Shown piece after piece: positions 32,171-60,035 of a stretch of 64,000 nucleotides of DNA. Under the pieces are notes generated by a model that searched no databases, was not told the DNA's origin, and saw nothing but the letters and a program-made list of their open reading frames with translations. Source of the DNA: Acidihalobacter ferrooxydans (GTDB lineage: Bacteria; Pseudomonadota; Gammaproteobacteria; DSM-5130; Acidihalobacteraceae); assembly GCF_001975725.1 (NCBI RefSeq), contig NZ_CP019434.1, forward strand, positions 2,807,322 through 2,871,321, read 5' to 3'. The stretch's first letter is position 1, and each line of letters begins with the position of its first letter. The translations under genes were made by a program, and so were the position numbers.

Positions 32171-32626
32171 GGTGGATGCGCGTTCGCTTATCCACCCTAC
32201 ACACACCCAACCACCGACGCCCGACCCCGCGTAGGGTGGATAAGCGCAGTGCATCCACCAACCCAGGCCCCAGCGCCGCGACAAGCCCTCACGGTGGATG
32301 CGCGTTCGCTTATCCACCCTACACACTCCCAACCACCCGACGCCCGATCCCGCGTAGGGTGGATAAACGCAGTGCATCCACCAACCCAGGCCTCAGCGCC
32401 GCGACAAGCCCTCACGGTGGATGCGCGTTCGCTTATCCACCCTACACACTCCCAACCACCCGACGCCCGATCCCGCGTAGGGTGGATAAACGCAGTGCAT
32501 CCACCAACCCAGGCCTCAGCGCCGCGCCAAACTTCCACGGTGGATGCGCTGCGCTTATCCACCCTACACACACCCAACCACCGACGCCCAATCCCGCGTA
32601 GGGTGGATAAGCGCAGCGCATCCACC
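32171..32626. repeat. REP array A: 8 REP elements in 4 inverted pairs
   Basis: Reverse-orientation elements at 32171, 32293, 32416 and 32539, forward elements at 32231, 32353, 32477 and 32598. The pair repeats every 122-123 bp, so the array grew by tandem duplication of a pair (BIME-like). Each forward element is GTAG, then arms GGTGGAT / ATCCACC around an inner GCGC-A-GCGC (GT instead of GC in some copies). The array sits between the ends of two convergent units (anti-sigma and sucD). Confidence 0.85.
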
Positions 32627-32696
32627 AGCCCAAGCCTCGGCACCGCGCCAACTCTCCACCGCGCCGCACTCCAGCCCATCCGCGCACCGAAGCCGC

Positions 32697-38520: not shown

Positions 38521-39155
38521 GTAGGGTGGATAAGCGCAGCGCATCCACCAACCCAAACCCCAACGCCACACCCACCGTCCACGGTGGATGCGCTATCGCT
38601 TATCCACCCTACAAAACACAGAAAACCTCACGCCCATTCCCCAAACCCAACCCCCACGTAGGGTGGATAAGCGCAGCGCATCCACCAACCCAAACCCCAA
38701 CGCCACACCCACCGTCCACGGTGGATGCGCTATCGCTTATCCACCCTACAAAACACAGAAAACCTCACGCCCATTCCCCAAACCCAATCCCCACGTAGGG
38801 TGGATAAGCGCAGCGCATCCACCATTCCCAAACCCCAACGCCCCACCCACCGCCCACGGTGGATGCGCTATCGCTTATCCACCCTACAAAACACAGAAAT
38901 CCCAAACCCTCACCCAACCCCCACGTAGGGTGGATAAGCGCAGCGCATCCACCATTCCCAAACCCCAACGCCACACCCACCACCCACGGTGGATGCGCTA
39001 CCGCTTATCCACCCTACAAAACACAGAAAACCTCACGCCCATTCCCCAAACCCAAACCCCACGTAGGGTGGATAAGCGCAGCGCATCCACCATTCCCAAA
39101 CCCCAACGCCACGCCCACCGCCCACGGTGGATGCGCTATCGCTTATCCACCCTAC
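38521..39155. repeat. REP array B, left part: 10 REP elements in alternating orientation
   Basis: Forward elements at 38521, 38658, 38795, 38925 and 39063, reverse elements at 38583, 38720, 38858, 38988 and 39126. The pair recurs every 130-138 bp and the spacers between elements are also conserved (runs of C and A such as CCCAAACCC and ACAAAACACAGAAA). The array continues after the IS element at 40512-40603. Confidence 0.88.
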
Positions 39156-39211: not shown

Positions 39212-40431
<1,220 letters not shown>

Positions 40432-40511: not shown

Positions 40512-40603
40512 GTAGGGTGGATAAGCGCAGCGCATCCACCACTCCCAAAGCCCAACGCCGCACCCACCGCCACGGTGGATGCGCTATCGCTTATCCACCC
40601 TAC
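40512..40603. repeat. REP array B, right part: 2 REP elements
   Basis: One forward element (40512-40540) and one reverse element (40574-40603) with the same spacers as the left part. They are the continuation of array B after the IS insertion and end about 45 bp before the dyad upstream of pilA. Confidence 0.85.
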
Positions 40604-41459: not shown

Positions 41460-41855
41460 GTAGGGTGGATAAGCGCAGCGCATCCACCAGCCCAAACCCC
41501 AACGCCGCGCCAACCGCCCAAATCCATCGTCCCCCATGCCCAACGCCATCCCCAACGTCATGCCTGCCTTCTGCGGTGGATGCGCTGCGCTTATCCACCC
41601 TACGGAACCTTCGGCCTGTCGTGCTCAACCCGGACCTTTCGACGCGTCTGCTTTCTGTGGTGGATGCGCTTCGCTTATCCACCCTACGGAACCTTCGGCC
41701 TATCGTGCTCAACTCGGACCCTTCGCCGTGCCTGCCTTCCGCGGTGGATGCGCTTTGCTTATCCACCCTACGGAACCTTCAGCCTGGCGTGCTCAACCCG
41801 AACCTTTCGCCGCTCCTGCCTTCTGCGGTGGATGCGCTTTGCTTATCCACCCTAC
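41460..41855. repeat. REP array C with exact 84-bp tandem repeat
   Basis: One forward REP (41460-41488) is followed by four reverse REPs at 41575, 41659, 41743 and 41827. The last four are spaced exactly 84 bp apart because a unit containing a reverse REP plus a conserved spacer (GGAACCTTC.GCCT..CGTGCTCAAC) is repeated about 3.4 times. Unlike other arrays all tandem units point the same way. It fills the gap between the pilA terminator and the next gene. Confidence 0.85.
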
Positions 41856-41983: not shown

Positions 41984-43966
41984 ATGCGCCAGAACCTGAC
42001 CCTCGCCGCCGGCCTGCTGCTCGCTGTCGCCGCCACCGTGCTGATCTACTGGCCCGGCATCCACGGCCCCTTCCTGCTCGACGATTTCGCCAACATCGTC
42101 AACAACCCCGCGCTGAAGCTTCACCACCTGAGCTACAACGCCCTGATGGCCGCGGCCTTTTCTTCCGACGCCGGCCCGCTGCACCGGCCCATCGCCATGG
42201 TCAGCTTCGCGCTGAACGAATACTTCGTCGGCCCCGGCGCGGCGTCGATGAAGGCGACCAACATCTTCATCCACGCCTTCAACGGCGTGCTCGTCTACGC
42301 CGTCGCCGCGCTCACGCTCACCGCCTACCGCCGCCGCTTCCGCCCCGACCTGACGCGCGGACAGGTGTTGGGCACGGCGCTGGCCATCGCCGCCGCCTGG
42401 CTGGTGTTGCCGATCAACCTCACCGCCGTGCTGTACGTGGTGCAGCGCATGACCAGCTTCTCGGCCACGTTCGCCCTTGGCGGCATCGCGCTGTATCTCT
42501 GGGGCCGCCTGCGCTTGCTCGACGGTCGGCGCGGCCTGTGGATGCTGTGGACCGGCATCGCGCTGGGCGGCGGCCTGGCCGTGCTGACGAAAGAGGACGG
42601 CGCGTTGCTGCCGGTGTACACGCTGGTGCTGGAATGGGCGCTGTTCGGCTTCGCGCGCGCCTCCGGCGGCCGCGACCGCCGCCTCTACCTGCTCTACGCG
42701 CTGTTGCTGCTCGCGCCCGGCATTCTGGGCCTGATCTGGCTGTGGCCGGGCATCGCCGGCAGCTTCCAGCATTCGGGCCGCCCGTTCACCATCGTCGAGC
42801 GCCTGCTCACCGAGCCGCGGGTGTTCTTCGACTATATCTACTGGACGCTCGCCCCCAACCTCGGCGCCCTCAGCCTGTATCACGACGATTACCCCTTCTC
42901 CACCGGCCTGCTCGCGCCGCCGACCACGCTGCTGTCGATCCTCGGGATCGTCGCCCTGCTGGCGGTGGCGGTCTGGCTGCGCCGGCGGCGGCCCCTGATC
43001 GCGCTCGGGATAGTCTGGTTCTTCGCCGGGCAGTTGATGACCGGCACATTCTTCGACCTCGAACTGGTGTTCGAGCAACGCAACTACATTCCCGATATCG
43101 GCCTGCTGCTGATCGTCTTCGGCACCGTGCTGCTGGAGCGGCCCGTTGAAAAACTGCTGCTCGCGCGGCGCACGCTGGTCGTCGCCCTCATTGTGCTGTA
43201 TGCGCTGATCCTCGGCCTGCGCGTGCAGGAGTGGTCGAACGGCCTGCGCCTGGCCGAGATGCAGGCATCCATGCATCCGCATTCGCCGCGCGCCACCTAT
43301 TCATTGGGGCGGATTCTAGCCGTAGCGGCTACCAGAGAGCCGCACAACATCAAGCTGATCAAGACAACCACCCGCGCGCTGAACCAGTCTGCCGCCATTC
43401 CCGGCTCCAGCCTGCTGGCCGACCAGGCGCTGCTGATCCTCTACGCGCAGATTCACCAACCCTACAACCCGGCCTGGTGGTCGCGCATCGATCACAAACT
43501 GCGCACCCAGCCGATGTCGGCGCAGAATCTGGTGTCGCTGCAATACATGGTCACCTGCGAGGTGCAAAAACACTGCGTGTTCCCGCAGGCGCAGATGCAA
43601 CAGGTCTTCGACATTGCCACCCGGCGCTTTGCCCGCAACCCCAAACTGCTGAGCGTCTACGCCAACTGGCTGCTCAACATCCGCCGCGAACCGCTCGCCG
43701 CGCGCGCCGTGATGGAGCGCTGCGTCGAACTCGATCCGCGTACCCCGCAATACTGGATCAATCTGATCCGGCTCGACATCGCGCTGTACCGCTTCAAAGA
43801 CGCCCGCGACGACATCGCGCAACTGGCCAAATACAACCACCTCGGCCAACTCGACGACACCTTGCGCTCCCTGCGCCGGCAACTGCACGACACCGAACAA
43901 ACGTTCGTTAAACAGGTCAAAAACGCCCAACAAAAATCAGCCCACAAAGGCCCGCCGGGTGGATAA
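41984..43966 (+). CDS. multi-span membrane protein with C-terminal TPR-like region; candidate glycan/pilin-modification enzyme
   Basis: 660 residues. About ten membrane segments occupy residues 1-420. An Asp-Asp pair in FLLDDFANIVNNP lies in the first periplasmic loop, where GT-C glycosyltransferases hold their catalytic acid. The C-terminal ~230 residues are helical and TPR-like (ATYSLGRILAVAATRE, PKLLSVYANWLLNIRREPLAARAVMERCVELDP). A paralogue is at 45371. Its location downstream of pilA, like tfpO/tfpW in Pseudomonas, suggests pilin glycosylation. This is inference; the family is otherwise uncharacterised to me. The last codons and stop lie within a degenerate REP. Confidence 0.7.
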   Translation: MRQNLTLAAGLLLAVAATVLIYWPGIHGPFLLDDFANIVNNPALKLHHLSYNALMAAAFSSDAGPLHRPIAMVSFALNEYFVGPGAASMKATNIFIHAFNGVLVYAVAALTLTAYRRRFRPDLTRGQVLGTALAIAAAWLVLPINLTAVLYVVQRMTSFSATFALGGIALYLWGRLRLLDGRRGLWMLWTGIALGGGLAVLTKEDGALLPVYTLVLEWALFGFARASGGRDRRLYLLYALLLLAPGILGLIWLWPGIAGSFQHSGRPFTIVERLLTEPRVFFDYIYWTLAPNLGALSLYHDDYPFSTGLLAPPTTLLSILGIVALLAVAVWLRRRRPLIALGIVWFFAGQLMTGTFFDLELVFEQRNYIPDIGLLLIVFGTVLLERPVEKLLLARRTLVVALIVLYALILGLRVQEWSNGLRLAEMQASMHPHSPRATYSLGRILAVAATREPHNIKLIKTTTRALNQSAAIPGSSLLADQALLILYAQIHQPYNPAWWSRIDHKLRTQPMSAQNLVSLQYMVTCEVQKHCVFPQAQMQQVFDIATRRFARNPKLLSVYANWLLNIRREPLAARAVMERCVELDPRTPQYWINLIRLDIALYRFKDARDDIAQLAKYNHLGQLDDTLRSLRRQLHDTEQTFVKQVKNAQQKSAHKGPPGG

Positions 43967-44413
43967 ACACAACGCATCCACCAGCCCAGGCCCCGTCACC
44001 GCGCCCACCCTCCGCGGTGGATGCGCGATTGCTTATCCACCTACAAAACCCCCACCCCCCCAAGCCGAACCCCCCGTAGGGTGGATAAGCGCAGCGCATC
44101 CACCAGCCCAAACCCCAACGCGACACCCAACGCCCACGGCGGATGCGCGATTGCGTATCCACCCGCCAAAATCCCCAACCACCCAATCTCAACCCCACGT
44201 AGGGTGGATAAGCGCAGCGCATCCACCAGCCCAAACCCCAACGCCACGCCCACCCTCCACGGTGGATGCCCGATTGCTTATCCACCCTACAAAACCCCCA
44301 ACCTCCCAAGCCCAACCGCGCGTAGGGTGGATAAGCGCAGCGCATCCACCAGCCCAAAGCCCAGCGCGACACCCACCCTCCACGGCGGATGCGCTATCGC
44401 TTATCCACCCTAC
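43957..44413. repeat. REP array D: 8 REP elements left of the RAYT gene
   Basis: Forward elements at 43957 (degenerate, lacking GTAG), 44076, 44199 and 44322, reverse elements at 44016, 44138 (degenerate), 44261 and 44384. The pair recurs every 122-123 bp, the same period as in array A. The last element ends 65 bp before the RAYT start. Confidence 0.87.
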
Positions 44414-44478
44414 AAAACCCCCAACCATCCAAACCCAAGCCCAACCCCCGCACCTATCCCGCTCACGGAACCCGCGCC

Positions 44479-44997
44479 ATGAGCCGTTACCGCCGTCCTG
44501 AAATTCCCGGCGGGGTGTTCTTTTTTACCGTCGTGACCTGCAACCGACGCCCCGTCTTCACCACCGACGAATCCGTGAACGCACTGCGCGCTGCTTTCCG
44601 CCGGGTACGCCACGCGCGCCCGTTCGCAATCGACGCGATGGTCGTATTGCCGGATCATCTGCACTGTATCTGGCGTCTGCCGGAAGGCGACAGCGATTTT
44701 TCCGGCCGCTGGCGGGAGATCAAAAAGGCGACCTCACGCACGCTTGCTCCGCAAAGCAACACCCGCAAGGAGCGCTCCATCTGGCAACGCCGGTTCTGGG
44801 ATCACGCCATCCGCGACGAAACCGACTGGCAACACCACCTCGATTACATCCATTACAATCCGGTCAAACACGGCCACGCCGAGCGCCCCGATGCCTGGCC
44901 CTGGTCGAGCTTCCGGCGCTGGCAGGAGCGCGGCGCGTATCCCCATGATTGGGGCCGCTCCGAACCTGCGGAAATTGCCGACATGAATTGCGAATGA
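44479..44997 (+). CDS. REP-associated tyrosine transposase (RAYT), Y1/HUH family
   Basis: 172 residues. The opening YRRPEIPGGVFFFTVVTCNRRPVF is typical of RAYTs (group with IS200-like Y1 domain). The HUH metal-binding motif is DHLHCIWRLP, and the nucleophile Tyr is in LDYIHYNPVKHG, followed by WPWSSFRRW. Related enzymes nick single-stranded REP hairpins 5' of or near the GTAG tetranucleotide, cutting as monomers and not as a self-mobile IS. The gene has REPs on both sides, within 65 and 76 bp. It is intact. The REPs here have exactly the GTAG-plus-hairpin form expected for a cognate substrate. Confidence 0.93.
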   Translation: MSRYRRPEIPGGVFFFTVVTCNRRPVFTTDESVNALRAAFRRVRHARPFAIDAMVVLPDHLHCIWRLPEGDSDFSGRWREIKKATSRTLAPQSNTRKERSIWQRRFWDHAIRDETDWQHHLDYIHYNPVKHGHAERPDAWPWSSFRRWQERGAYPHDWGRSEPAEIADMNCE

Positions 44998-45073
44998 AAC
45001 CGGAGGCAAATCAACGCGTGGACGATCAAACTCGCCCCAACCACCCAGGCCTTTCGCCGCGCCCACCCTCCGC

Positions 45074-45342
45074 GGTGGATGCGCTATCGCTTATCCACCC
45101 TACAAAACCCCAACCCCCACACCCAACCCCACGTAGGGTGGATAAGCGCAGCGCATCCACCAGCCCAAAGCCCAACGCGACACCCACCGCCAACGGTGAA
45201 TGCCCGACCCCATATCCACCCAAAACCCCCAACCACCCATACCCAATCCCGCGTAGGGTGGATAAGCGCAGCGCATCCACCAACCCGAACCCCAACGCGA
45301 CACCCACCGCCCACGATGAATCCCCGATCACCGATTCACCCG
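45074..45342. repeat. REP array E: 5 REP elements right of the RAYT gene
   Basis: Reverse element at 45074, forward elements at 45133 and 45253, and two degenerate reverse elements at about 45194 and 45314. The spacing (about 120 bp per pair) and spacers match array D, so the RAYT gene appears inserted in, or amplified with, one continuous array. Degeneration increases away from the RAYT. Confidence 0.8.
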
Positions 45343-45370: not shown

Positions 45371-47368
45371 ATGATCCGCACTGTCTCTCGCAATGAACTC
45401 GCTGCCGGGCTCGCGCTCTGGGCGCTGCTCGGGCTGGCGTGGCTGGCTTATCATCCCGGCCTTAGAGGCAGCTTTCTGTTCGATGATTTTTCCAATCTTG
45501 CCCCGCTCGGCGCCTACGGCCCCATCCGCAACTGGAACACCTTCGTCACCTACATGCTCAGCGGCATTTCCAGCCCTTCCGGGCGACCGGTGGCGCTGCT
45601 CACGTTCCTCATCGACGCCAACAACTGGCCGACTTCGCCGTATCCGTTCAAGGTCACCAATGTCCTGATCCACCTGCTCAACGGCGCGCTGCTGGCCTGG
45701 CTGTCACTGCGCCTGCTGCGCGTGCTGAATGTCGCGGCGCGTCCGGCGGTGTGGGCGGCGGTGCTGGCGGCCGGCATCTGGTTGCTGCACCCGTATCTGG
45801 TCGGCATCACGCTGTACGTCGTGCAGCGCATGGCCATGCTCGACGCGCTTTTCGTAATGGCCGCGCTGCTCGCCTATCTGCAGGGGCGAGGTCACTGGGT
45901 CGCGGGCCGTCACCGGCGCGGCTACCTCTGGATGAGCTTCGGCATCGGCGGCTTCGGCCTGCTCGCCGTGCTGTCCAAGGGCAACGGCGCATTGCTGCCG
46001 CTGTTCGTGCTGATCGTGGAGGCAACGATTCTCGACCGCGCCGATTCGCCGCTGCGCATCGTCGCGCCGACCCGTGGCTGGCGCATCTGGCGCTGGCTCT
46101 TTCTCTATCTGCCGCTGCTGCTGTTCGCCGCTTACCTGATCCATCTCCTGCCCGGCATTCTGGACAGCACCGGCAACAAAAACGCGCAGTTCACCGTCTG
46201 GCAGCGGCTGCTGACGCAGCCGCGCGCGCTGCTCGACTACCTGTGGCACCTGATCGCGCCGCGCGCCTACACCGCCGGGCTCGACACCGACAATTTCCCG
46301 CTTTCCACCAGCCTGCTGCATCCGTGGACCACGCTGCCCGCTATCCTCGGCGTATGCGGTCTGCTGGCGCTGGGCTGGTGGTCGCGCCGCCGCTATCCGG
46401 CCCTGGCCCTGGCGATTCTGTTCTACTTCGCCGCGCAACTGCTCGAATCGACCTTCATTCCGCTGGAACTGTATTTCGAGTACCGCAACTACCTGCCCTC
46501 GATCTTCCTGCCGCTGCCGCTGGCGCTGTGGATCGCCACCACGCCCCGCCTGCGCGTCGCCTGGGCCCGCCCCGCGCTGGGCGTGAGCGTGCTCGCGCTG
46601 CTGGCCCTGCTGACCTGGCAGCGCGCGACGCTCTGGGGGCAACCCTTTCTCCAGGCCAAGGTGTGGTACGCCATCAACCCGACCTCGCCGCGCGCGGAAA
46701 CCTCTCTGGCCATCCTCTACATGAGCCGTAATGACTACCGCCCGGCCGTGCGCGTGCTCGCAGCCGGCCTCGCCCACCACCCCGACAACATGATGCTCAC
46801 TCTCAACCTGGGGCTGGCCGAATGCGGCATGGGCCGGCTCGCGCCCGCCACCTATGCACGCATCGGACACGTGCTGCGCACGACGCGCTACGCCGGCAGC
46901 GTGGTCTACAACACGCTGAACGACTTCATCGCCGACCTGCCGGCGCGGCGCTGCGCGGGGCTGGATGCTGCGCGCGTCGCCGCCTTGCTCGACACGGGCC
47001 TGAGCAATCCGCATATCCAGGACAACGGCGCCTGGAAACAGGACCTGCTCGCCCTGCGCGGCAAACTGGCGCTGCAACAGCATCACCCGCAAGCCGCGCT
47101 GACAGCGTTCCGCGCCGCGCTGGCCGCCCGCCCGCGCGCGGCCGCCGCGCTGCATGAAGCGGCCGAACTCGGCATCGCCGGCCAGCCGCGGCTTGGCCTT
47201 GCCCTGCTCGATTATTACGCCACGCTCAAGCCCTGGCACCCCAGTGGCTTCAATGTCGCGCACCTGCACGCGCTATGGCTCGAACACCTCGACTTTTATC
47301 CTCAACAGATCGCCCACGTGCGTACAATCCTGCAAGAACAGGCCGCAGCCGCCCACACATCGCCGTAA
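45371..47368 (+). CDS. multi-span membrane protein with TPR-like C-terminus, paralogue of the 41984 gene
   Basis: 665 residues with the same layout as the 41984 product: FLFDDFSNLAPLG in the first loop, about ten membrane segments, FEYRNYLPSIFLPLPLAL late in the membrane part (compare FEQRNYIPDIGLLLIVFG), then a TPR-like region (ARVLAAGLAHHPDNMMLTLNLGLAE-type helices and LALQQHHPQAALTAFRAALAARP). It starts only 29 bp after array E and ends in the run-up to array F. I infer a related glycan-transfer or surface-modification role. Confidence 0.7.
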   Translation: MIRTVSRNELAAGLALWALLGLAWLAYHPGLRGSFLFDDFSNLAPLGAYGPIRNWNTFVTYMLSGISSPSGRPVALLTFLIDANNWPTSPYPFKVTNVLIHLLNGALLAWLSLRLLRVLNVAARPAVWAAVLAAGIWLLHPYLVGITLYVVQRMAMLDALFVMAALLAYLQGRGHWVAGRHRRGYLWMSFGIGGFGLLAVLSKGNGALLPLFVLIVEATILDRADSPLRIVAPTRGWRIWRWLFLYLPLLLFAAYLIHLLPGILDSTGNKNAQFTVWQRLLTQPRALLDYLWHLIAPRAYTAGLDTDNFPLSTSLLHPWTTLPAILGVCGLLALGWWSRRRYPALALAILFYFAAQLLESTFIPLELYFEYRNYLPSIFLPLPLALWIATTPRLRVAWARPALGVSVLALLALLTWQRATLWGQPFLQAKVWYAINPTSPRAETSLAILYMSRNDYRPAVRVLAAGLAHHPDNMMLTLNLGLAECGMGRLAPATYARIGHVLRTTRYAGSVVYNTLNDFIADLPARRCAGLDAARVAALLDTGLSNPHIQDNGAWKQDLLALRGKLALQQHHPQAALTAFRAALAARPRAAAALHEAAELGIAGQPRLGLALLDYYATLKPWHPSGFNVAHLHALWLEHLDFYPQQIAHVRTILQEQAAAAHTSP

Positions 47369-47433: not shown

Positions 47434-47708
47434 GCAGAGTGGATCAACGCAGCGCGCCCACCAACCCAGGCTCCAACGCCACGCCCACCCTCCGCGGTGG
47501 ATGCGCGATTGCATACACACCCGACAAAACCCCCAACCACCCAAGCCCAACACCGCGCAGGGTGGATAAGCGCAGCGCATCCACCAGCCCAAAGCCCAAC
47601 GCCACATCCAATGCCCACGGCGGATGCACGGCCATATACCCACCCGACAAAACCCCCAACCACCCAAGCCCAACCCCACGTAGGGTGGATAAGCGCAGCG
47701 CATCCACC
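47434..47708. repeat. REP array F: 5 REP elements, partly degenerate
   Basis: Forward elements at about 47434 (degenerate), 47557 (GCAG in place of GTAG) and 47680 (intact), reverse elements at 47496 and 47619 (degenerate). Spacing is again about 123 bp per pair. It ends 45 bp before the GT2 gene. Confidence 0.78.
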
Positions 47709-47752
47709 AACCCAAACCCCAACGCCGCACCCCCGTACCAGGCCCGCAGATA

Positions 47753-48691: not shown

Positions 48692-48756
48692 CCAGGCGCC
48701 TGCGGATAAGCCAATGCGCACCACCACCCTCCACAACCACCCAAACCCAACCCCAC

Positions 48757-48848
48757 GCAGGGTGGATAAGCGCAGCGCATCCACCAGCCCGAACCCCAAC
48801 GCCGCACCAGACCTCCACGGTGGATGCGCTATCGCTTATCCACCCTAC
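48757..48848. repeat. REP pair G
   Basis: One forward element (48757-48785, GCAG in place of GTAG) and one reverse element (48819-48848). It fills the 187-bp gap between the GT2 gene and the frameshifted GT4 gene. Confidence 0.8.
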
Positions 48849-48878
48849 AAAACGGCCGATGTCCGGACCCGCCGCTCT

Positions 48879-50040
48879 ATGACGACAAAACACTCCACGC
48901 TCGCGCCGGATCGCCCCGCTGCCCTGCTCATCACCCGCAACCTGCCACCGCTGGTCGGCGGCATGGAACGGCTGGTATGGCACATCGCCGACGCTCTGCA
49001 TGCCGACTGGCGGCTGCACGTCATCGGCCCTGCCGGCTGCGCGGCGCGGCTGCCGGCCGGCGTGACGGCCAGCGAAGTCCCGCCGCGACCGCTGTGGCGC
49101 TTTCTCGCCGCCACCAAGTTCACCGCCTTCCGCCATGCGCTTCGCCGCCGCCCCGCGCTCGTCGTCGCCGGCAGCGGCCTCACCGCGCCTTTCGCTCAGG
49201 TCTCCGCGCGGCTGGCCGGCGCGCGCTGCATCGTGTATCTGCACGGCCTCGATATCGAAGCCCGCCACCCGGTCTATCGCCTGCTTTGGAAACCCTTTTT
49301 CCGCCGCTGCGAACGCGTGCTGGTCAACAGCCGCTTCACCCGCGATCTGGCCCTGCAAGCCGGCGTGCCGAGCGAACGGCTCGCCATCCTCCCCCCCCGG
49401 CGTCGACCTACCCGACCTGAGCCGCGCCGGGCAGGCCCGCGCCGCCTTCCGCGAACGTCTCAATCTGGGAAACGCCAAAGTGCTGCTCTGCGTCGGGCGC
49501 ATCACCGCGCGCAAGGGGCTGGCCGTGTTCGCGCGCGACATCCTGCCCGCCATCGTCGAACGCCGGCCCGACGCGCGCCTGCTCGTCATCGGCGACGAAC
49601 CGGTCGGCGCGCTTCAGCATCGCAGCGGCGAAGCAGCCCGCGTGCAAGAGGCCCTGTCGGCTGCCGGCCTCGTCGATCGAACTCTGTTCCTGCGCGATGC
49701 GGACGATGAAACCCTCGACGCCGCCTACTTCGCCGCCGACGCGCTCGTCTTCCCGGTGCAGGATCGGCCCGGCGATCACGAAGGCTTCGGCATGGTCGCC
49801 GTGGAAGCCGCCGCCCACGGCCTGCCCACCATCGCCTTTGCCGCCGGCGGGGTGAGCGACGCCGTGCGCGACGGCGTCAGCGGCCGCCTCGTCCCGCCCG
49901 GCGACAACGCCGCCTTCGCCGCCGCCGTGCTGGACACGCTCGATCAACCGCCCGACCCGAAAGGCGCGCGCGGCTTCGCCGAACAATTCGCCTGGGCTCT
50001 TTTCGCCGTTAAACTTCGCCAACTGGCAAGCGACGCATGA
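48879..50040 (+). pseudogene. family 4 glycosyltransferase interrupted by a single-base frameshift in a C8 run
   Basis: The first frame encodes the N-terminal GT-B domain (ALLITRNLPPLVGGMERLVW to VNSRFTRDLALQAGVPSERLAILPP). At 49391-49398 a run of eight C shifts the frame. With seven C the text continues GVDLPDLSRAG in the next frame and gives a full C-terminal GT4 domain (VLLCVGRITARKGLAVFARD, HEGFGMVAVEAAAHGLPTIAFAAGGV) up to the stop at 50040. Total length would be about 386 residues, normal for GT4. The choice is between a sequencing slip, a true mutation and a phase-variable tract. Confidence 0.85.
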
Positions 50041-58631: not shown

Positions 58632-60035
58632 TCTGCGGCATCGCGCCATGGGCTCTTGCGGGCTATTCGGAATAGGTGGTGTGTTGGGTGGCGAGGTCGG
58701 GCGCTTGCTTGCGGGATGGCTTTGGTGGTGCGCTGGGGCTTCTGTGGTGGATGCGCTTTGCTTATCCACCCTACGTCACAGCAACCGTTGGAGTTTGATT
58801 CTGGGTTGGGGTGATAAGCGCAGCGCATCCAGCAGCCCAGGCTCCGGTGTCGCGCCATGCGTTCTTGTGGGCTATTCGGGTTGGATGCTGTGTTGGGTGG
58901 CGAGGTCGGGCGCTTTCTTGCGGGATGGCTTTGGTGGTGCGCTGGGGCTTCTGTGGTGGATGCGCTTTGCTTATCCACCCTACGTCACATCAACCGTTGG
59001 AGTTTGATTCTGTGTAGGGGGATAAGCGCAGCGCATCCACCGGCGTAGGCTACGGATCGCGCCATGCGTTCTTGCGGGGCCATCCGGGTTGGGTGGCGAG
59101 GTCAGGCGCTTTCTTGCGGGATGGCTTTGGTGGCGCGCCGGGCTTCTGCGGTGGATGCGCTTTGCTTATCCACCCTACGTCACGACCACCGTTGGAGTTT
59201 GATTCTGTGTAGGGGGGATAAGCGCAGCGCATCCACCGGCGTAGGCTACGGATCGCGCCATGGGCTCTTGCGGGGCCATCCGTGTTGGGTGGCGAGGTCG
59301 GGCGCTTTCTTGCGGGATGGCTTTGGTGGTGCGCTAGGGCTTCTGTGGTGGATGCGCTTTGCTTATCCACCCTACGTAAAATCAACCGTTGGAGTTTGAT
59401 TCTGGGTAGGGGGGATAAGCGCAGCGCATCCACCAGCGTAGGCTCCGGCATCGCGCCATGGGCTCTTGCGCGATCATCCAGGTTGGGTGGCGAGGTCTGG
59501 CGCTTTCTTGCGGGATGGCTTTGGTGGCGCGCTGGGGCTTCTGCGGTGGATGCGCTTTGCTTATCCACCCTACGTAAAATCAACCGTTGGAGTTTGATTC
59601 TGTGTAGGGGGGATAAGCGCAGCGCATCCACCGGCGTAGGCTACGGATCGCGCCATGGGCTCTTGCGGGGCCATCCGTGTTGGGTGGCGAGGTCGGGCGC
59701 TTTCTTGCGGGATGGCTTTGGTGGTGCGCTAGGGCTTCTGTGGTGGATGCGCTTTGCTTATCCACCCTACGTCACGACCGCCGCTGGAGTTTGATTCTGT
59801 GTAGGGGGGATAAGCGCAGCGCATCCACCGGCATAGGCTACGGTGTCGCGCCATGCGTTCTTGCGGACTATTCGGGTTGGGTGTTGTGTTGGGGAGGCGA
59901 GGTCGGGCGCTTTCGTGTGGGATGGCTTTGGTGGTGCGCCGGGCTTCTGCGGTGGATGCGCTTTGCTTATCCACCCTACGTTACGTCCACCGTTGGGGCT
60001 GATTCTGTGCTGGGGAGGACTTATGCGGCGCATCC
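58632..60035. repeat. REP array H: seven ~200-bp tandem units, each with an inverted REP pair
   Basis: Reverse REPs start at 58746, 58955, 59150, 59347, 59545, 59742 and 59951, giving periods of 209, 195, 197, 198, 197 and 209 bp. Forward REPs lie between them (for example 59014, 59209, 59407, 59605 and 59803) but usually carry GGGGGAT in place of GGTGGAT. The ~130-bp spacer (CCATGGGCTCTTGCG... to GATGGCTTTGGTGG) is also conserved, so whole units were duplicated. The 1.5-kb gap between the flippase and fabF genes holds nothing else. Confidence 0.88.

Follow-up and report, generated by a model that had tools for sequence, protein, structure and literature searches.

Our analysis indicates that the gene at positions 44479 to 44997 of the window (by which we mean the whole 64,000-nucleotide stretch of Acidihalobacter ferrooxydans DNA that was analysed) encodes an intact REP-associated tyrosine transposase (RAYT), and that this gene and the REP hairpins arrayed around it probably constitute a REPtron of RAYT group 2 (subclass 2.2) whose RAYT mobilises its REPINs, a reading to which we assign a probability of about 0.82. 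According to this reading, the chromosomal RAYT would act as an HUH/Tyr single-strand nuclease that recognises, in single-stranded DNA, the GTAG tetranucleotide and a hairpin with an AA/GC mismatch, and that cleaves beside the hairpin via Y123. A REPIN of about 92 nt would then be moved or copied to other intergenic sites, some insertions would subsequently multiply as tandem arrays with the spacer carried along, and the REPINs would so far have spread mostly near the RAYT gene. Cleavage by the window RAYT, its strand specificity and REPIN mobilisation are here carried over from TnpAREP of E. coli, which binds and cleaves single-stranded REP, not inverted REP, and needs both GTAG and the mismatch (PMC8266576). 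On the model of the E. coli enzyme, the window protein should cut its own REPs and move REPINs.

Results

A preliminary description of this DNA had proposed that the forward-strand open reading frame at 44479–44997 is a RAYT with HUH and tyrosine motifs, and this was borne out. The 172-residue protein matches the NCBIfam equivalog NF047646 (REP-associated tyrosine transposase) along its entire length, scoring 201 bits where the cut-off is 80; it also matches Y1_Tnp and has every catalytic residue in place, with H60/H62 of the HUH motif within PDHLH and the catalytic Y123 within DYIHYNP. The IS200 model matches weakly, at a score under its own cut-off. The E. coli protein TnpAREP (4er8_A) matches with 165 bits and 52% identity over 158 columns; H60/H62 correspond to E. 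coli H59/H61, Y123 to Y115, K83 to K82, and the conserved W102, Q103 and R112 to W94, Q95 and R104. In E. coli, W94, Q95, E100, R104, G160 and E161 contact or adjoin GTAG, G160 and E161 being contacts, while K82 touches a bulged REP base. The window RAYT has D at the E100 position, and its M169/N170 are unmatched to G160/E161 in a tail where the alignment is uncertain. DHLH and YIHYNP are motifs listed for subclass 2.2 of group 2 (PMC6006769), and these motifs, the equivalog match and the flanking GTAG REPs with their long mismatched stem place the window RAYT in group 2 (subclass 2.2).

The genome has no other close RAYT than the window copy; IS200 copies occur elsewhere, as does a relative with an open frame of 288 amino acids. 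We also considered an IS200/IS605 insertion sequence, that is, a multicopy element with its own ends, and rejected it, the gene being single-copy in the genome and flanked by REPs. PADLOC found no defence family, and a promoter scan of the REP array found no promoter. Two large membrane proteins with a similar N-terminal layout flank the RAYT (41984–43966 and 45371–47368), and TPR was found in the second only.

Each REP consists of GTAG followed by a GGTGGAT/ATCCACC stem that is interrupted by an AA/GC mismatch, which is the layout of E. coli REPs, where the AA-GC mismatch has been described (PMC8266576). Most of what had been proposed for the hairpin holds in the sequence: REPs lie within 65–76 bp on both sides of the gene (the upstream one ends at 44413, 65 bp away, and the downstream one starts at 45074, 76 bp away), GTAG immediately precedes the hairpin, and the arms are GGTGGAT/ATCCACC with an AA that lies on the 5' side. 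The suggested inner stem GCGC-A-GCGC must be given up because it would need an impossible loop of 1 nt; DNA folding of a single REP gives GCG-CAG-CGC with an AA bulge. In an alignment of 20 diverse REPs, most of them from RAYT relatives, an invariant AA stands opposite an invariant GC, and the inner stem has 2–6 bp; four pairs show changes in both partners. Only these two-sided changes are informative, since the REPs were found via their palindromic arms and the 100% pairing in the alignment is thus partly by construction; likewise the presence of AA..GC in 97/97 REPs is partly built into the search pattern.

These repeats are not a product of chance. Allowing up to 3 mismatches, we counted 38 instances of the 25-nt hairpin in the window and none in 100 shuffles; in the genome, a single contig of 3.449 Mb, the GTAG 29-mer was found 61 times, whereas its reversed control was not found at all. 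Palindromes of the form GGTGGAT-N8-20-ATCCACC number 87 in the genome. The genome-wide count that the preliminary description had asked for thus gives 61 copies of the 29-mer, and a relaxed scan over the fetched REP regions of the genome raises it to 97 oriented REPs at 21 sites, with 51 in the window and 85 carrying GTAG. A REPtron has multicopy REPs in the genome as well as beside its gene, and the 97 REPs at 21 sites are of this kind.

The REPs are organised in inverted pairs. Head-to-head offsets are 57–60 bp in 24 pairs and 111–147 bp in 10, and the usual REPIN has about 92 nt, made up of GTAG-REP-a, a 33-nt linker and an inverted REP-b-CTAC. Its two ends differ, REP-a having the inner sequence AAGCGCAGCGC and REP-b often AAGCGATAGCGC, and the REPIN that adjoins the RAYT is predicted to fold, when single-stranded, as one long hairpin (−29.2 kcal/mol, z −8.0). 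When distant sites are compared, REP identity is 0.92–0.94, linker identity 0.61, and flank identity 0.53 and 0.49, with 0.53 for shuffled flanks. Since the REPs are 92–94% identical while the flanks are at chance level, the REPIN is the dispersed unit, and the near-constant 92-nt unit of two inverted REPs disperses as one, as the definition of a REPIN has it.

One could instead suppose that the REPs are passive, old hairpins serving as terminators or mRNA stabilisers that replication slippage and gene conversion have multiplied, with the RAYT a mere neighbour or relic. The arrays are indeed regular tandem repeats that include the spacers, and sites near the RAYT share some spacer (identity 0.68 and 0.61, against 0.53), a sharing that either local copying of entire array units or common base composition could explain. 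However, slippage fails as a source of the distant copies because these have nothing but the REPIN in common, their flanks being unlike. The RAYT, moreover, is intact in all its catalytic residues, and we therefore regard passive REPs as unlikely.

Around the gene, the upstream REPINs (all on the forward strand) begin with a degenerate outer one at 43954–44045, in which GCCG replaces GTAG, followed by one at 44076–44167 with an intact REP-a (44080–44104) and a degenerate REP-b (44138–44163), by a 92-nt REPIN with a 33-nt linker at 44199–44290, and by the REPIN adjoining the RAYT start at 44322–44413. The REP at 43958–43982 supplies the final codons and the TAA stop (GGT GGA TAA) of the 41984–43966 gene. 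On the 3' side, a reverse-strand REP-b at 45074–45103 lacks its REP-a partner, a forward REP-a at 45133–45161 has a degenerate partner (45195–45220), and a forward REP-a at 45253–45281, whose partner at about 45315–45340 has decayed, ends the downstream array. It had been suggested that a period of about 123 bp continues across the gene. Both sides do show such a period (123 and 123 bp upstream, 120 bp downstream), but the phase is lost across the gene, since the distance of 811 bp between the two sides is no multiple of the period. Similarly, the idea that copies decay away from the gene describes the array edges, which are degenerate at 43958, 45195 and about 45315, but not the wider picture, since perfect copies lie at 32.6, 38.5–39.1, 40.5, 41.5 and 47.7 kb of the window and occur up to megabases from the RAYT.

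Elsewhere in the window we find a REPIN array of 8 REPs with a period of about 123 bp (32171–32630), one of 10 REPs with a period of about 137 bp on the forward strand (38521–39155), a single forward-strand REPIN 3' of an IS3-type transposase (40512–40603), an array of 5 REPs with an 84-bp period (41460–41855), a partly degenerate forward-strand REPIN array (47557–47712), and a single forward-strand REPIN between glycosyltransferase genes (48757–48848). The array at 58746–59979, with 12 REPs and a period of about 197 bp, consists of long-linker REPINs (166–179 nt); this second form has a linker of about 110 nt, and similar long forms occur at genome positions 1.438 Mb and 2.876 Mb. The IS3-type transposase orfB (rve, HTH_21) lies at 39490–40431 between two REP arrays and is overlapped by the Rfam ALIL pseudoknot, an IS3 frameshift signal. 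A glycosyltransferase is split over two frames at 48714–50040, with its N-terminal domain in the open reading frame 48714–49709 and its C-terminal part in 49135–50040; the apparent frameshift at about 49400–49480 may reflect either a pseudogene or a sequence error.

How far does the pairing of RAYT and REP hold beyond this genome? We typed 80 RAYT loci from named genomes and further loci from relatives; the typing made use of an E. coli REP, whose AA-GC mismatch is the one given in PMC8266576. RAYT relatives in other Pseudomonadota have the same or a compensated hairpin beside the gene: in Nitrococcus, Sedimenticola, Methylotetracoccus, Thiocapsa, Methylomonas, Dokdonella and others it is a GTAG-GGTGGAT, GGCGGAT or GCCGGAT hairpin. 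Across taxa, stem types track the RAYT tree: 34 changes of stem label are needed where shuffled labels need 58.6 on average (minimum 53), and 6 changes between GGTGGA and other stems where shuffled labels need 16.6 (minimum 13). This too speaks against passive hairpins. The preliminary description had held that its proposal would fall if the RAYT clustered with a group having different REPs; it does not do so, the neighbours of the window RAYT having GTAG with GGTGGAT, GGCGGAT or GCCGGAT and the AA/GC mismatch. Of the 125 loci that have REPs on both sides, 75 have the RAYT preceded by a forward REP and followed by an inverted one. At one locus (L047, a Dokdonella MAG) nine REPs in inverted orientation form a 52-bp tandem array immediately 5' of the RAYT, and at another (L081, Ectothiorhodospiraceae) GTCGGA and GTCGGT hairpins alternate downstream of the RAYT in a regular array with a period of about 117 bp.

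The residue equivalent to E. coli K82 sorts with the REP bulge type, although we regard this as suggestive only. In a first set of RAYTs, K went with AA/GC, R or H with AA/G, and T with a lone 3' G. The corresponding prediction was recorded after this set and before a second set of 58 new RAYTs was fetched, in which K went with AA/GC in 2/2 and R/H with AA/G in 5/6, while the prediction for T failed (3/9). Over both sets (145 RAYTs) the figures are 17/20 for K with AA/GC, 16/17 for R/H with AA/G and 27/35 for T with the lone 3' G, and under the strict typing rule three REPs of non-K RAYTs (two S, one M) fall in the AA/GC class. Since at most two phylogenetically independent contrasts for the association are well supported, we do not claim a specificity code as shown.

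In the class, the REP is found in 6 of 369 genomes. Its copies number 74 (own genome), 24 (G150) and 8 (G273) where there is a RAYT 61–100% identical to the window's, and 5 (G072), 1 (G253) and 1 (G348) where there is none of at least 61% identity; the repeats are thus not equally abundant in genomes without a RAYT, the other outcome named beforehand as one that would count against the proposal. In G072, which has no RAYT match, five strict REPs (eight with mismatches) lie on contigs C1, C19, C26 and C76. This is an orphan REP population, so REPs can persist alone, and their survival there is a point in favour of passive REPs.

In the same-genus genome G001 we searched for both the REP and a close RAYT and found neither, and the same-family genomes G002 and G003 have a RAYT that is 55% identical, beside a different REP (GTTGGGCC), with the window REP type absent. 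These distributions, together with a polysaccharide cluster nearby, would fit the import of a REP-rich genomic island along with the RAYT as the cause of the REP concentration. Against this, the genes around the arrays are syntenic in G001–G004, mostly at 67–81% DNA identity, comparable gaps have no REP arrays, and no GC anomaly was found. The gap at 38.5–40.6 kb, which holds arrays and the IS3 element, measures about 2.3 kb here and 168 bp between matches in G001, and the gap of the 41.5-kb array about 570 bp here and about 80 bp in G001, both REP-free in the latter. Given this synteny and these short, REP-free gaps, the RAYT and REPs sit on a native gene background, and we consider island import slightly less probable even than passive REPs. 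It remains likely that the RAYT arrived horizontally, accompanied only by a founding REPIN, and the RAYT and REPs were presumably gained here, not lost in the sibling. In G002–G004 the first flanking membrane-protein gene is followed by the glycosyltransferase, without a RAYT; in G001 the second flanking membrane-protein gene is on another contig beside the same glycosyltransferase. Comparison with G001 gave no readable exact insertion target site, because the intergenic flanks are too diverged.

Finally, 10 of the 21 REP sites are found no more than 25 kb from the RAYT, where 0.3 would be expected (binomial p 4e-12). This clustering has two readings, local spread and tolerance of insertions. 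If the stretch, with its long intergenic gaps, simply tolerates insertions, no local spread need be assumed, and this would bear on that part of our proposal only. The IS3 element also sits in intergenic gaps here, the excess is weaker once sites within 3 kb are merged (4/14 near the RAYT, p 0.0008), and no REP clustering near the RAYT is seen in Methylomonas LW13 or G150. However, the proportion of sites near the gene is high, the corresponding gaps in G001 are short at two sites, and REPs likewise concentrate at the RAYT in Thiocapsa imhoffii (where the 9.9-kb contig with the RAYT carries 13 of the 16 REPs), in the Dokdonella MAG and in G081. Insertion tolerance is a serious possibility, if short of an even chance. 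Somewhat more doubtful still is a fuller proposal, namely that a residue-82 specificity code sets REP type and that, separately, REPINs spread preferentially near the RAYT, with young REPs clouding around the gene.

Discussion

The system described here most resembles the E. coli REPtron (TnpAREP/YafM, PDB 4er8, Y/Z REPs), with which it shares a group 2 HUH/Tyr RAYT (52% identity), equivalents of W94, Q95, R104 and K82, GTAG REPs with an AA-GC mismatch, inverted pairs and a single REP-flanked gene. It differs in its lower stem, GGTGGAT, in its number of REPs (about 100 against about 600), about half of which lie within 25 kb of the gene, and in a protein with a 7-residue insertion before the IWQ motif and D for E100. 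As in Pseudomonas fluorescens SBW25, whose REPINs were described by Bertels and Rainey (2011, PMC3116915), the mobile unit is two inverted REPs, tandem arrays include the flanks, and arrays lie beside the RAYT. Pseudomonas REPs, by contrast, belong mainly to the short, perfectly paired type of group 3 and reach far larger genome-wide numbers. The GTAG tag is shared with the GTAG families 1–24 (Di Nocera 2013, PMC3733652), and as described the organisation resembles that of GTAG-3, in which dinucleotides are left unpaired between the stem and a loop flanked by GC. In the literature text searched, GGTGGATAAGCG was not found, and GTAGGGTGGAT occurred only in papers unrelated by title. The view that this is an under-described system can thus be kept in part: group 2 REPtrons that have REPINs are a well-described kind, but the GGTGGAT stem and the density near the gene appear to be undescribed in the literature text searched.

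More generally, our results add a GGTGGAT REP family, one that is widely shared, to the REPtrons of the E. coli type. The association between residue and REP gives single-residue swaps for recognition, a point that was left open after the E. coli co-crystal. Moreover, since one species has the RAYT and REPs and its genus sibling has neither, it becomes testable how, and how far, REPs disperse. The system is a clear new example of a familiar type of "domesticated" bacterial transposase, not itself a new type, and it offers hints on how RAYTs choose their repeats and why these repeats accumulate near the gene.
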